From: a virus
Reading direction: 5' to 3' (one strand)
DNA length: 64,000 bases
IMG/VR virus record: IMGVR_UViG_3300026488_000011
Coordinates: 62,001 to 126,000 of that record
The notes below the pieces were generated by a model. The model was not told the DNA's origin. It saw only the letters and a program-made list of their open reading frames with translations, and made no database searches. The position numbers were made by a program, and so were the translations under genes. The first letter of the stretch is position 1, and each line of letters begins with the position of its first letter. Below, in pieces: positions 37,313 to 62,128 of this stretch.

Positions 37313-37337
37313 AGGTGCAGGGAGTTACCCTGCACCT
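37313..37337 (-). terminator. Terminator of the split RNA polymerase beta' gene
   Basis: AGGTGCAGGG / CCCTGCACCT; the TAA stop (37325-37327) is in the loop. In the leftward sense it is followed by TTTTTTTCTTCG. Confidence 0.85.
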
Positions 37338-37546
37338 AACAGCTTTCTAGCTACTGGATCGTCTTCAGGACTACGGCTATCTTCTCTCATGTGTGTAAAG
37401 TTAGATAGCGTAGCCACTGTGGTAGACGGTATATATAAGTTTTTATTAACCTTACCGTCTATGTCTATGATGTTGTAATGTGGAGAAAACTTCTTAGCTA
37501 TCTCCGCCATCTTATTATCTAGTAATATAGTAGCATTCATTTCGTC
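37325..37546 (-). CDS. Exon 3 of the split RNA polymerase beta' N-terminal subunit
   Basis: It begins with GAC GAA ATG at the 3' splice site (intron 2 ends in G at 37547), giving DEMNATILLDNKMAEI and on to a stop at 37325, 73 codons. The first Asp completes the NGDFDGDEMN catalytic motif as the third Mg ligand (D409 of the spliced 481-aa product). Ending about 70 residues after the motif is the same split point as the intact beta' gene at 48278 (51 residues after). As a free-standing frame it would begin only at ATG 37540, with no ribosome site. Confidence 0.82.
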   Translation of the reverse strand, partial: DEMNATILLDNKMAEIAKKFSPHYNIIDIDGKVNKNLYIPSTTVATLSNFTHMREDSRSPEDDPVARKLLGAG

Positions 37547-37962
37547 CGTGATGTTCAGACAGGGTCGTTACTCCTGTCCCGCGGCATTACCCGCAGCTCT
37601 AGCTTTCACTAGAGACCAGACTATACCATCACCCTTTACCATAGGATCAATTATCCCTTAGGCAGTCGGGTGCCCTCCGTTTCGAACTCACTTGAGTCCT
37701 ACTCTACTCGGTTTTCACTATTCCGTTTCCAGAATAGCTATCCTTTCGACAGTCGTTGAACACACACCATATCCATTTGGACGTAGGTGCTTCGCTGCGG
37801 ATCGTCCTATACTAACGAGCTTTTTACTATACCATGGAGCACTCGCCTCCCCATGCCCTTATCCGGTTTCCCGGATAAGTTAGTACTCATTAGCTTCAGG
37901 ATGTCTCCGCAATTAGGAGGGTTTTTAACTAGAGTATTTCTACTCTAGGACAGCCAGTATTA
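37547..37962 (-). mobile_element. Group I intron 2 (416 nt, no ORF)
   Basis: Core elements in the leftward sense: P (AATTGCGGAGAC, about 37902-37914), Q (CCGCAGCGAAG, about 37790-37800), R (GTTCAACGACTG, 37750-37761) and S (GTATAGTCTGGTC, 37612-37626). UUGCGG and CCGCAG form P4; GACU and AGUC form P7. P1 is read as exon GACGGU with the guide GCUGUC at 37949-37954, with U.G at the splice site. The intron follows U and ends in G. It is strongly similar to intron 1. Confidence 0.85.
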
Positions 37963-37971
37963 ACCGTCGAA
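37963..37971 (-). CDS. 9-nt microexon (exon 2) encoding Phe-Asp-Gly
   Basis: Leftward TTC GAC GGT between the terminal G of intron 1 (37972) and the first base of intron 2 (37962). It supplies FDG of NGD-FDG-DEMN, including the second Mg-binding Asp (D407). It pairs at its start (UUCGA) with UCGAG just before the guide of intron 1 (P10) and at its end (GACGGU) with the guide of intron 2 (P1), so both splice sites are fixed by pairing. The frame is kept exactly. Confidence 0.8.
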
Positions 37972-39749
37972 CGAGTACAATGTACTCGGACCATATCTTC
38001 ATCCCTTACCATAGGATAGATCATCCCTTAGGTAGTCGGATGCTCCCCGTTTCCCATCCAATTAGATGGTACCCTACTCGCTTTACCAGTAGTTACACTA
38101 CCAGCGGGCAGTCTTACCTTACCCTCACTATTACTATACCTTTCGGTATAGTCGCAGCTTTCGGTGGCCTCTGAACACATCCCATATCTATAAAAGACGT
38201 AGGGACTTCGCTGCGTCGATTCCGCAACACTATGACGTTTTTACCATACTCGTCGCTTCCATTACTGGGACGAGTATCATACTCGGTTTCCCGGTATGAG
38301 TGGTAGTCATAGCTTTTACACGGTTCCCGCAGTTAGGGGAGTATTTTGCTAGAGTATTACTACTCTAGGGTGACCTCGACCCGTTAAACTTTAACAACTC
38401 TTTTAATACCCAGAGAATCTATTATAGGTACATTTTTATCTTTTATGCAGTTAATGATGGTCTTTTGACTTACGTTAAAATGTCGAGCTGTCTCTCGTAT
38501 GCCCTTGAATTCCTTCTTTGTCCCGTCTTTAAATTCTACTAATATAGAAGTACTCCTAGAATAGTTGACTAAATTATCCATACACCACTTACCATTTTTC
38601 CATAACACCCAATCATTTATACGGTAACATTTGTCATCGTTTAGAAATTTTGCTAACTTAGCTCCGCTAATCTTTAAAAACTTTTTAGCTGGCTTTATAC
38701 CATTAAATTCTTTTACTTCACCTGTAACTAAATTTTTAACTTTCACCGGTTCTTTAGATTGTTTTTTATGTAGTTTAAATAATTCATATCTTTCATGGTC
38801 CTTTAAAACATCCAATAACATAGAATCCTTGTATAGGTAACCTTTTTCACCAGTCAATTTCCTCCACAATTTAGTCTTGTTATTATAGAACTCCAATTCG
38901 CCAGATTCTTTATTTCTAACGATTATACCCCATGGTAAATCTATTAAACTAGGATCCATAAGATACTGCCTATAACTATTGTCGTCTGCTAAATAATATA
39001 ATTCATCAGGTTCTGTCTCTGAATCAGAGGTCTTGCTAAACCAAGACGGGGTCTTCTTGTCAGATATAGTAGATTTACTTAACCCTAATATTTTACTCAC
39101 CCTGTTTAAATTACTACAAAACCAGATCCTTTTATCTAATACATTTGTTAACACATACATACCTAGCTTTAAGTTTGTTCTTGTATGTACGTTAGCAGAA
39201 TTTTGTTCCATGGTAGTCCAATGAATATTTTCTAAACGATTGTCCTTTTTATTGTTATTTTTATGGTCTACGATATAATCTGTAACAAAATCATTATTCG
39301 GCAACCATGCATATGCCATAAGGCGGTGTACTGTCGTTCTGTAGTGAGAATGTGTTTGTGTTGTGATTATGACACAATTATAACCGCTGCAATCAGATGT
39401 TTTTAATTTGGTGTTTGTTATTAAGTCATAAACATTTCCTACCTTATCTACAGCATACCTAGGCGCTATTGGGACAACAGCATATTCTTTCTTTGTTCTC
39501 ACACTGCAAAATACAACAGGCCTATCAAACATTGGTATATGTACTACTTCATACGGACCATTGCCTTGTCTTATCCTGGCAGGAACGTACTTTATGATGT
39601 TCTTTAACCACTCTAAACCTTTTGGGTATTTGTAATTCTCTGGGTATCTTATAAATTGTTTTTTGATCTTCATTCTTAACTCCTTTTTAAGTACTCAGTA
39701 TAAGGAGTTATTGTTTTAAAAAATGCTGTGTTTAACGGGTCTATAACGC
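37972..39749 (-). mobile_element. Group I intron 1 (1778 nt) with HNH endonuclease in the P1 loop
   Basis: It begins GCGTTATAG after exon U (39750) and ends in G (37972). The guide GUCACC (38369-38374) pairs with exon GGUGAU, giving the U.G pair. The guide lies after the endonuclease gene, which is therefore in the P1 loop, closed by the 12-bp repeat GACCCGTTAAAC / GTTTAACGGGTC (39730-39741 and 38378-38389). The core follows: P (AACTGCGGGAACC), Q (GACGCAGCGAAG), R (GTTCAGAGGCCACC, 38163-38176), S (AAGATATGGTCC, 37988-37999). Confidence 0.85.
38384..39673 (-). CDS. HNH homing endonuclease of intron 1
   Basis: A 429-aa protein with AAAAAGGAGTTAAGA before the ATG. The nuclease is HNH: VDHKNNNKKDNRLENIHW at about residues 135-152, with the His and Asn residues placed as in phage intron endonucleases (NUMOD4-HNH type). 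The C-terminal half has two DNA-binding NUMOD1/IENR repeats (NLVTGEVKEFNGIKPAKKFL and FKDGTKKEFKGIRETARHFN). It makes a break in intronless copies of the target so that repair copies the intron. The stop codon lies inside the P1-extension repeat of the intron. Its own ribosome site suggests it is translated from the unspliced transcript or excised intron. Confidence 0.9.
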   Translation of the reverse strand: MKIKKQFIRYPENYKYPKGLEWLKNIIKYVPARIRQGNGPYEVVHIPMFDRPVVFCSVRTKKEYAVVPIAPRYAVDKVGNVYDLITNTKLKTSDCSGYNCVIITTQTHSHYRTTVHRLMAYAWLPNNDFVTDYIVDHKNNNKKDNRLENIHWTTMEQNSANVHTRTNLKLGMYVLTNVLDKRIWFCSNLNRVSKILGLSKSTISDKKTPSWFSKTSDSETEPDELYYLADDNSYRQYLMDPSLIDLPWGIIVRNKESGELEFYNNKTKLWRKLTGEKGYLYKDSMLLDVLKDHERYELFKLHKKQSKEPVKVKNLVTGEVKEFNGIKPAKKFLKISGAKLAKFLNDDKCYRINDWVLWKNGKWCMDNLVNYSRSTSILVEFKDGTKKEFKGIRETARHFNVSQKTIINCIKDKNVPIIDSLGIKRVVKV

Positions 39750-40964
39750 ATCACCGTTTGGCGCTTTGATAGTCATCATGTTTACACCGATGGTCTTATC
39801 TTCGATATTAGTTTTGAATTTAGTTATATAATAGAGTTGACTAGACCCCATTAACAAGCTAGGATTCCTGTTAAATATTACAGGGATTCCTTTATAAGGA
39901 GATTCTTCTATCAACTCGTTCAGAATTTCTTCTATTACTGGATAATGCTTGTTGACGGCTTCAAAAACTAGGTTAGAAGCTTCTTTATACGTGTATCCTC
40001 TTTTTAAGAGCTTATTTATAATATGCGGTCTAAATGCAGTAGGACCTATTATCCATGGTACATGCAACACATCATAATCTTCGCTGGTAGGGAGTGAGGT
40101 GATTACCGCTCTGAAGGTAAAATGACTACGAGTACCATAGATATGTTTTCTCACCATTCCTTTTTTACCGGATAGCTTTTCTTTACTATATTTGATAAAG
40201 AGCTTAGCTATCCCGGAGATTATTTTACCTACACCATTCTCTACCTTTTTACTGTAAGGATCCATGTTTGCTAACTTTACTGCTAATAGCGATATATCGA
40301 TAACGTCTCCTAACATAGTAGTGGTATAAGCATCCTTCCCTGTTACTTCCATTACAAATAGTCTCTTATTCACTAACGGTAAATAATCTACTAGGAGTTT
40401 ATCCCTATTCCTTTTCCATTCCTCTAGCAATCTCTTGGCTTTCTTATCCTTTTTATTGGATTTAAACACAGAATTATTAGCTATATAGAGCAATATTTTC
40501 TCTATGTTATTTATAACGTTTAGATACCCCCTACCTCCTATTATATTTTTGATAGAATGGAGATATGTAGGTATCTTAGGAGGATTATAAGAAGTATCTG
40601 CTAACCAGCGTAGCCCGTCTATTCTTTTACCTAATATAGATGTGAGTTGATTCCAGAAATGCGGATTTAGGAATTTTAAATCATCCCTGAACTTCTCTAT
40701 CCATAGTAGCGGCTTTATTATGTCAAAAGCTTTCACTACAGAAGTACCGCATTTAGGACATGTCTGACCGAGTCTCCATGCACCTTTGAAATACCCGCAC
40801 TCGCATTGTGGTATGATGGAAATTTCGTCCTCGTATTGAGTAAACAACAGCTTTTTCATTTTCTCAGGTTCGACGTCGGTTATTTTAAAGTTGTTGAGAA
40901 TTAACTTACGATCTGTTTCGTGGAAATATTGATTTAGATCATTATAGTCTTGTACTATTGGCAT
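39750..40964 (-). CDS. Exon 1 of RNA polymerase beta' N-terminal subunit
   Basis: AAAGGAGGAAGA precedes the ATG; the exon encodes 405 residues to NGD at the splice site (the read-through frame continues only to a TAG at 39741). A zinc-binding site has C54, C56, C69 and C72 (CECGYFKGAWRLGQTCPKC), with the same spacing as bacterial beta' C70/72/85/88. Further conserved parts are GTRSHFTFRAVIT, HVPWIIGPTAF and the lid of the active centre IFNRNPSLLMGS. D405 is the first catalytic Asp. Joined with exons 2 and 3, it gives a 481-aa beta' N-terminal half like that of the phiKZ polymerases, whose beta' is always split. It probably belongs to the phage polymerase not carried in the virion, but that is inference. 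Confidence 0.85.
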
Positions 40965-42372: not shown

Positions 42373-42402
42373 ATACTATCAGGATCTAGATCCTGATAGT
42401 AT
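42373..42402 (-). terminator. 30-nt palindromic terminator of the 502-aa gene
   Basis: ATACTATCAGGATCT / AGATCCTGATAGTAT, perfect palindrome directly after the TAA stop of the leftward gene, followed by CTATTTTTTTTAC. Confidence 0.85.
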
Positions 42403-43910
42403 TATAAAACTTCTATTTGTGTCATCAAAAAGTCTCCTAGGAGTTCCACTGTGGCGTAAAACGCAGCTTCACTTGGTGTAATGTTTTCACCCAGCATTTT
42501 TGTAGCATCATAACTAACAAATTTAGGATACATTGTGTTGGCTGTAAGTGTTAACATAATCTCTTTAGATGTATTTACTACATCCATCAAATCAGCTATT
42601 TGTTTATTTTCTACAATTTCAGTCACTACTTCTTTCACTATTTTTTCTCTAATATCTTCGTTCGGATAAATCTCTGACATTGCTTTACTATTCGCTAATA
42701 CACTTCTGCTTAGTATATAAATGCTCATCAGTGAGTTTCTTTCTCTCTCTTTATTTTTAACAATTAATAGTCTACCGTATTTGTTAAATATTGCTTTAAA
42801 CTCATCCTTCTTGCTTAATAAATCTTCAGCTTTTAACAATACAGATAATCGTTTTGTATCAATAGGACTTTGAGATAATTCAGATAGAGCTATTCCGTAC
42901 AATACACTATTATCGACCTTAGTTCCGTCTTCGTTTACTTTAGATAATACTGGCAATACTACAGCCACTGCGTAACCGTCCTCGCTTCTATATACATACG
43001 GTACCAGAATATTATTATTAATCATTGTTAGTAAATGTCCGTAGAGACGATTGAATCTTTTAATAGCTGCATTCATAATAGCTTCAGCCGCAGCTGCTTG
43101 TTCGGGTAAGTTAGATTTTCTTGCGTTAATGTAGATATTTCTAAGTGCAAGAATTAATAAAGCTAACATATCTAAATCAGATGCATCGGCATTATTAATC
43201 TCTTTCAATATCTCTTTAGCATCACTAGTAGATAATAAAGAATAAATGTGGTTTACCAACTCATAACTTTTAGGTATTTCGTTTAATCTATTTTTTAAAG
43301 CATTTTCTATCTCTAACTCATCCTGTTTCTCTATGCTATCGCTAAGAGACATTACGCTGTCAAACGCAAGAGGTATTCCTAATGCATCCTCTATCCTAGC
43401 ATTTGTCTCAGTGAGATAACCTCTTTCTTTTAACAACTGATATAAATAACTGTCGTCTAAGTAGAATATTTCAAAATCACTTTCAGGATCAGATGCTTCT
43501 AAGTTGCTAATACCAGCATTTACTCTCTCTACATATCTACTTAGGTCACTGTTTAATCTTCTAAAGAAGATTAGCTCTTTATAAGTTTTGTCACTAAGTC
43601 TTTTTATAATTTCATCATCTGTTAAATCAGATATTCTAGGGGTAAAGTTATTTTCGTCTATAGTATTAAAGTTTACATAATTAAGTAAACCACCTAATAC
43701 AGGTACCAATCTACCCTTACAACCAGGTTTACCACATGCTTCTTGTAACAACTGTTTCACTTTGTTTTCAACTACTACGTCTATTAGATCTTTTATGGTC
43801 TCATCAGGTAACTTAGACATGTTTTCAAATATGTCTTTTTTAAGTAAATCTTTTAACGTAAACCACTCTATCTCTTTAAGAGCAGTCTTAATTTTTCTGT
43901 TATCATACAT
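42402..43910 (-). CDS. Hypothetical helical protein, 502 aa
   Basis: AAGGAGAAATAAG precedes the ATG. Strongly alpha-helical and acidic, with a Cys pair near residue 60 (EACGKPGCKGRLVPV) and a helix-rich body (LLALLILALRNIYINA; EQAAAAEAIMNAAIKRF). It lies between the two RNA polymerase gene groups, downstream of beta. It could be a polymerase-associated subunit (phiKZ's non-virion enzyme has one non-homologous subunit) or a virion protein; nothing in the sequence decides this. Confidence 0.6.
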   Translation of the reverse strand: MYDNRKIKTALKEIEWFTLKDLLKKDIFENMSKLPDETIKDLIDVVVENKVKQLLQEACGKPGCKGRLVPVLGGLLNYVNFNTIDENNFTPRISDLTDDEIIKRLSDKTYKELIFFRRLNSDLSRYVERVNAGISNLEASDPESDFEIFYLDDSYLYQLLKERGYLTETNARIEDALGIPLAFDSVMSLSDSIEKQDELEIENALKNRLNEIPKSYELVNHIYSLLSTSDAKEILKEINNADASDLDMLALLILALRNIYINARKSNLPEQAAAAEAIMNAAIKRFNRLYGHLLTMINNNILVPYVYRSEDGYAVAVVLPVLSKVNEDGTKVDNSVLYGIALSELSQSPIDTKRLSVLLKAEDLLSKKDEFKAIFNKYGRLLIVKNKERERNSLMSIYILSRSVLANSKAMSEIYPNEDIREKIVKEVVTEIVENKQIADLMDVVNTSKEIMLTLTANTMYPKFVSYDATKMLGENITPSEAAFYATVELLGDFLMTQIEVL

Positions 43911-61811: not shown

Positions 61812-62128
61812 TTAGGTGTACGTTGTTATTCGCTTTGTTAGCATTTTTTATAACCGGATGTAGTAAACAACCAGAATATAAAATTATCTATAAAGAAAAG
61901 ATTGTTAGAGTATATCCTCCCGAGTATTTAACCAAGGATAATATTAAACTACCTCCACCGCCTAGCAAATATCGATACATTACAGGAGATCCTTTTCAAA
62001 GAGAGAGGTTACTGACTAAATATGTGATAGAATTATTAATCACTATTAAAAAGTATAAAGTAAAGCTTAAAAATATTAACGACTGGAACAAGAAGACAAA
62101 TAAGATATTATCTACTACTGACAAATAG
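61808..62128 (+). CDS. Outer-membrane spanin lipoprotein (o-spanin, Rz1-like)
   Basis: 106 aa, starting within the last codons of the i-spanin (ATGA overlap). N-terminal lipoprotein signal MIRCTLLFALLAFFITGCSK with the lipobox ending in C18, so the mature protein is lipid-anchored in the outer membrane. The mature part has a proline-rich stretch (LPPPPSKYRY), typical of o-spanins, and a basic end. The stop codon lies in a terminator hairpin. Confidence 0.85.
   Translation: MIRCTLLFALLAFFITGCSKQPEYKIIYKEKIVRVYPPEYLTKDNIKLPPPPSKYRYITGDPFQRERLLTKYVIELLITIKKYKVKLKNINDWNKKTNKILSTTDK

Follow-up and report, generated by a model that had tools for sequence, protein, structure and literature searches.

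The β′ N-terminal subunit of the non-virion RNA polymerase (nvRNAP) of phage phiKZ, gp55, carries the motif DFDGD at residues 417–421, and gp71–73 constitute the β subunit (PMC8287921, PMC7618050). The gp55 gene is interrupted at this motif by an HNH-bearing group I intron (PHIKZ055, HNH gene PHIKZ056, PHIKZ056.1). The name of chain 7ogp_A in the PDB, 'PHIKZ055 | DNA-directed RNA polymerase,PHIKZ056.1', combines two annotated genes that flank the HNH gene PHIKZ056, so that the subunit of phiKZ is itself the product of both; a word search found no mention of an intron in the two structure papers (PMC8287921, PMC7618050). In the jumbo phage PhiPA3, a β subunit gene of the virion RNA polymerase (vRNAP) has a group I intron beside conserved Asp codons, whose HNH endonuclease, gp210, was shown experimentally to nick alleles that lack the intron (PMC11620839). 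Multiple group I introns per gene are described for Twort orf142, phiNIT1 rNDPL and SIOphi TerL, and a small exon between them for phiNIT1, all genes other than gp55 (PMC11878797). In organelles, mitochondrial mini-exons of a few bases lie between self-splicing introns (PMC8971849, PMC10352661). Here we describe a gp55-type gene in a window of 64,000 nucleotides (nt), positions 62,001–126,000 of the 185,491-bp IMG/VR virus record IMGVR_UViG_3300026488_000011; coordinates without a locus name are window positions. Like phiKZ gp55, it is interrupted in the catalytic motif, and its first intron resembles the gp210 intron of PhiPA3 in carrying an HNH gene. It differs from PhiPA3 in the polymerase and the subunit affected and in having two introns instead of one, and from phiKZ, where a single intron at N^ADFDGD (AAT/GCTGATTTTGACGGCGAT) leaves all three Asp codons on one exon without a micro-exon. 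We consider it about 90% probable that two group I introns splice out of this nvRNAP β′ N gene via a shared nine-base exon (Table 1).

Table 1. Predicted exons, introns, splice guides and intron-encoded endonuclease of the gp55-type gene.
Feature	Position	Strand	Description	Support
Exon 1	40964-39750	minus	1215 nt, residues 1-405, ends ..KAPNGD (AAC GGT GAT)	phrog_2987 E 1.9e-96; PDB 7ogp_A
Intron 1	39749-37972	minus	1778 nt, group I, HNH open reading frame (ORF) inside P1 loop	RF00028 core match, P3/P4/P7
Exon 2	37971-37963	minus	9 nt, TTC GAC GGT = UUCGACGGU = TTCGACGGT, encodes F-D-G	identical in L004
Intron 2	37962-37547	minus	416 nt, group I, without ORF	RF00028 79.3 bits; fold z -7.5
Exon 3	37546-37325	minus	222 nt including stop, 73 residues, starts GAC GAA ATG (DEMNATILL..)	alignment of joined product
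HNH endonuclease with NUMOD1	38384-39673	minus	429 aa	Pfam HNH_3 and NUMOD1 above cut-off
Intron 1 P1, exon side	39750-39755	minus	GGUGAU	U.G at junction
Intron 1 guide, P1 strand	38369-38374	minus	GUCACC	pairs GGUGAU
Intron 1 guide, P10 strand	38375-38380	minus	GUCGAG	pairs exon 2 UUCGAC
Helix closing ORF-bearing loop, 5′ strand	39730-39741	minus	GACCCGUUAAAC	12 bp
Helix closing ORF-bearing loop, 3′ strand	38378-38389	minus	GUUUAACGGGUC	overlaps P10 strand by 3 nt
Intron 2 guide	37949-37954	minus	GCUGUC	pairs exon 2 GACGGU, U.G at junction
Decoy 5′ splice site in exon 1	39753-39758	minus	AACGGU	five pairs with guide 2; use gives in-frame NGDEMN

Joined at the predicted junctions (AACGGTGAT/TTCGACGGT/GACGAAATG), the three exons form an open, in-frame sequence of 481 amino acids (aa) with the motif NGDFDGDEMN (KAPNGDFDGDEMNATILLDN). 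The inserts lie at NGD^FDG^DE and place one metal-binding Asp codon on each exon, and reading through without splicing meets a stop after two codons of intron 1. The first-pass annotation, made from the letters alone, had proposed these borders, this join and the distribution of the three Asp over three exons, all of which the sequence bears out. Exon 1 falls into a family that includes PHIKZ055, and the joined protein aligns from residue 4 to 462 with 7ogp_A (E 2.5e-66), gapless through the motif and thus through both junctions (..kapnADFDGDqlnltl..). Given this gp55-type family membership and the DFDGD of the joined product, the gene is, on sequence criteria, the β′ N-terminal subunit gene of a phage nvRNAP and an orthologue of gp55. 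The earlier comparison with phiKZ gp71–73 therefore concerned the wrong subunit (β).

Intron 2 exceeds the curated cut-off of 50 bits for RF00028, and its group I core from P3 to P8 was recovered. The fold z of intron 1 is -6.3. In an alignment of both introns from the window and from a second phage, L004 (see below), all four sequences have P2, P3, P4 and P7; between introns 1 and 2 there are two compensatory differences in P3 and one in P7, in addition to G.U exchanges. In each intron, P1 places a U.G pair at the 5′ splice site, and the last intron base is G. Judged by an identity of about 75% over parts of their length, the two introns are paralogues. Together these features support an arrangement in which two group I introns flank a three-codon exon, predicted alike in a second, diverged phage.

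Both 5′ splice sites are predicted to be recognized by a P1 of 6 bp that ends in U.G, and intron 1 would find its 3′ site by P10. A simple P1 of intron 1 adjoining the end of exon 1 was rejected, as its loop would have only 2 nt; the guide is located on the far side of the ORF, following helix GACCCGUUAAAC/GUUUAACGGGUC. For the fold of this P1 and its loop, the ORF was omitted and a short loop substituted. The adjacent P1 and P10 of intron 1 are equalled in ≤0.04% of shuffles, and P1 of intron 2 alone in 3–5%. Bases 1–6 of exon 2 are the partner of intron 1 P10 and bases 4–9 that of intron 2 P1, so that GAC (bases 4–6) is common to both and the two helices are mutually exclusive in their full length. 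Exon 2 would be just long enough for both pairings, and nine bases suffice for P1 and P10 recognition because the two pairings have three bases in common. Since GAC is shared, we infer self-splicing of the two introns in succession. Intron 2 probably leaves first, because its P1 is a local hairpin (8 bp in the free fold), and its removal would free GAC for P10 of intron 1. The joined mRNA would then encode an uninterrupted NGDFDGDEMN.

The Gly codon of NGD supplies bases for P1 of intron 1, and intron 1 and the motif may have co-evolved in this respect. NGD instead of NAD occurs only in the window (39750-39758) and in L004 (5330-5338) among the surveyed phages. AR9 has SGDYDGD, so that Gly by itself is tolerated.

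The same two introns, at the same sites, occur in the locus L004 (IMGVR_UViG_3300026382_000006). Its exons share 67% DNA identity with those of the window, with saturated synonymous change (pS 0.75) and a nonsynonymous divergence (dN) of 0.26, whereas the HNH ORFs are 85% identical, with a synonymous divergence (dS) of 0.79 and dN of 0.073, and the intron cores 94% (intron 1) and 96% (intron 2). Identity is slightly higher near the junctions (77% and 83% over the nearest 30 nt). Constraint on the RNA cores accounts for part of the gap between core and exon divergence. The dS of the HNH ORF, set against the saturated exons, fits a more recent shared ancestry of the intron block and hence its transfer between phages. 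As the introns are only 9 nt apart, they would be mobile jointly and co-inherited as one block. The HNH ORF lies within the P1 loop, closed off by the 12-bp helix, and is under selection (dN/dS about 0.09 against L004, its sole match in a sequence search). By analogy with PhiPA3 gp210, its product probably nicks alleles that lack the intron. In both phages, a 9-bp hairpin includes the ribosome-binding site of the HNH ORF in its stem (window 39676-39710, minus strand; L004 5378-5412). This hairpin is reminiscent of T4, whose intron endonucleases are under translational control.

Several points weigh against two functional introns around a shared exon. The assignment of both inserts to group I by the first-pass annotation was confirmed by Rfam for intron 2, but the core of intron 1 behind the ORF, although matching the whole RF00028 model (E 5.8e-9), reaches 40.2 bits and thus stays below the cut-off (28.2 bits in the genome-wide search). 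The guide analysis yielded no P10 for intron 2. The exact arrangement is common to only two phages, the source of the locus is an uncultured contig, and group I exon skipping is known from Twort and SIOphi (PMC11878797), so that partial mis-splicing is conceivable here. Such skipping is the core of one alternative, in which exon 2 is mostly or always omitted, or the decoy AACGGU is used, and the nine bases exist as a side effect of guide needs; the product would lack FDG or DFDG and be inactive. As anticipated, omission of exon 2 keeps the frame (..NGDDEMN..), and the decoy can form five pairs with guide 2 and is likewise in frame (Table 1). However, the F-D-G specified by the nine bases exactly completes a motif that is conserved in the phiKZ subunit and nearly all surveyed relatives and that the polymerase requires, and these bases are identical in L004 although the exons differ at one third of positions. 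We therefore regard this alternative as unlikely.

That the gene is a decaying pseudogene, with transcription left to vRNAP alone or to the host, seems to us quite improbable. The low Rfam score of intron 1 would suit such decay, as would the intact DxDGD of the vRNAP paralogue. This GADFDGD (window about 48454) is the only other DxDGD in the 185-kb record and belongs to phrog_2986, not phrog_2987, so that no intact copy of the subunit, which the first-pass annotation had named as the mark of a remnant locus, was found there. Moreover, the exon frames are open in two phages with dN of 0.26 at saturated synonymous change, the intron helices show compensatory changes, the HNH ORF is under selection, and the remaining nvRNAP subunits are kept: homologues of gp68, 69, 70, 71, 73 and 74 lie at about 9.4–18.7 kb of the record, in a search that covered the partners other than gp123. 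It is very improbable that exons 1 and 3 encode separate polypeptides that assemble while the inserts are never removed. β and β′ are indeed split over several genes in these phages (PMC8287921), but a division into two polypeptides leaves the second Asp unencoded, exon 3 has its first ATG (37540) downstream of the third Asp codon, the solved structure shows the phiKZ homologue as a single chain through the motif, and both inserts are identified as group I introns. An assembly artefact, conceivable for a metagenomic virus record, has a minimal probability in view of the same structure in the independent contig L004 with exons only 67% identical, and of comparable arrangements in the cultured phages KEN49 and Goslar.

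Splicing around the nine-base exon can further be compared with 48 gp55 loci in IMG/VR, a few of which stem from the same or near-identical phages. A script classed 31 of them as intact, and L064 (TADVDGD) is intact on reading, which leaves about 16 interrupted. With base 1 set at the start of the Asn codon in the seven-codon motif, introns are placed after base 3 (phiKZ, L047), 6 (L065), 9 (window, L004, L035, L036, L074, L047), 10 (L040), 11 (Goslar), 18 (window, L004, 2050HW, L042, L046, L073, L033), 21 (KEN49, W10-2, phiLBG22, L029, L047) and, less surely, 24 (Goslar, L065). The two sites of the window also occur with single introns, site 9 in L035 and L074 and site 18 in 2050HW and L042, on separate branches of the gp55 tree, in which intron-bearing rows are scattered. 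Rfam matches lie above the cut-off in L029, L033 (two), L035, L036, L040, L047, L073 (two), L074 and KEN49 (three), and below it in L042, L046, L063 and L065, with two more in L047 (37.3 and 21.8 bits).

Closest to the window are loci with inferred tiny exons. KEN49 (L007) likewise has two group I introns around a tiny motif exon, but this 18-nt exon (ADFDGD) holds all three Asp, and a third intron lies upstream. In Goslar (L024/L063), whose record carries an Intron_gpI feature, two introns flank an exon of 13 nt, and the first has a 7-bp P1 and an 8-bp P10; unlike the window, the sites are 11 and 24, and the second 5′ site lacks a clear P1. L047 (IMGVR_UViG_3300037502_002993) shares the tandem group I introns, with a middle intron at site 9 whose core is similar to intron 1, but has three of them (N/AD/FDGD/A) and exons of 6 nt (GCGGAT) and 12 nt (TTTGATGGTGAT); its joined protein reads KAPNADFDGDALILILNLDN. 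Exons of 18 and 20 nt are inferred for L065 and L033, respectively. Guides are absent or weak for intron A of L047, the middle intron of KEN49, intron A of L033 and intron 2 of Goslar, and the borders of these four were therefore drawn from the reading frame, the motif and the terminal G; the second border of L065 (after GCC) is uncertain. The L047 record, that of a 220-kb phage, contains seven group I intron matches, three of them within gp55.

As read from their sequences, these loci of near and distant relatives show that the seven-codon motif is a hotspot at which introns pile up. Near-identical subunits can have introns at different sites (Goslar and L065; phiKZ and L053), and intron competition would explain such site turnover. 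The first gp55 intron of Goslar (L063), after base 11, carries an HNH gene; that of L065, after base 6, has no ORF. A tentative and rather doubtful extension is that the motif is an arena of rival introns, in which insertion splits the targets of rival endonucleases, replacement and stacking leave micro-exons down to two codons, and polymerase activity comes to require that up to three ribozymes leave in order.

The size and position of the inserts had been presented as exceptional. The 9-nt exon is real but not the smallest, given the inferred 6 nt in L047 and mitochondrial exons of 3 and 1 nt (PMC8971849), and the inserts do lie in the conserved motif, but introns there were already known from phiKZ, Goslar and others, as were small exons between phage group I introns. 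The open literature searched, whose coverage is incomplete, yielded no description of micro-exons in the gp55 gene and no paper on gp55 introns. Apparently new are the spread of the three metal-binding Asp codons over three exons, the overlap of P10 and P1 within nine bases, and the recurrent accumulation of introns within a single motif. The predicted splicing would make the locus a natural test of how little exon two autonomous group I ribozymes can leave between them. In jumbo phages, introns recurrently target the most conserved sequence of multisubunit RNA polymerases, which keeps ordinary annotation from recognizing the catalytic motif, and the hotspot would offer a direct test ground for intron competition as shown for PhiPA3 gp210.

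The IMG/VR pattern TACTCGTTYGAYGGNTAA occurs in 12 stretches, and blast matched gene and introns in the L004 contig only. Vibrio phage matches to intron 1 (L005, L006) were rejected as further gp55 cases, as they had no gp55 match. In these jumbo phages, pir03 and Yong XC31 (L005 4001-4183, L006 4001-4178), a sequence like the intron 1 core (72–76%) lies under annotated hypothetical proteins. The L004 phage has an extra group I intron (100 bits; L085 847-1115, G001) in its vRNAP β gene, possibly near the site used by PhiPA3 gp210; the window copy of this gene is uninterrupted. The window record has a weak match to chimallin (E 0.003). Between the polymerase genes, a protein of 502 aa (42402-43910, minus strand) has no PHROGs family and no Pfam match above cut-off, and L004 has a 504-aa ORF at the same relative position.

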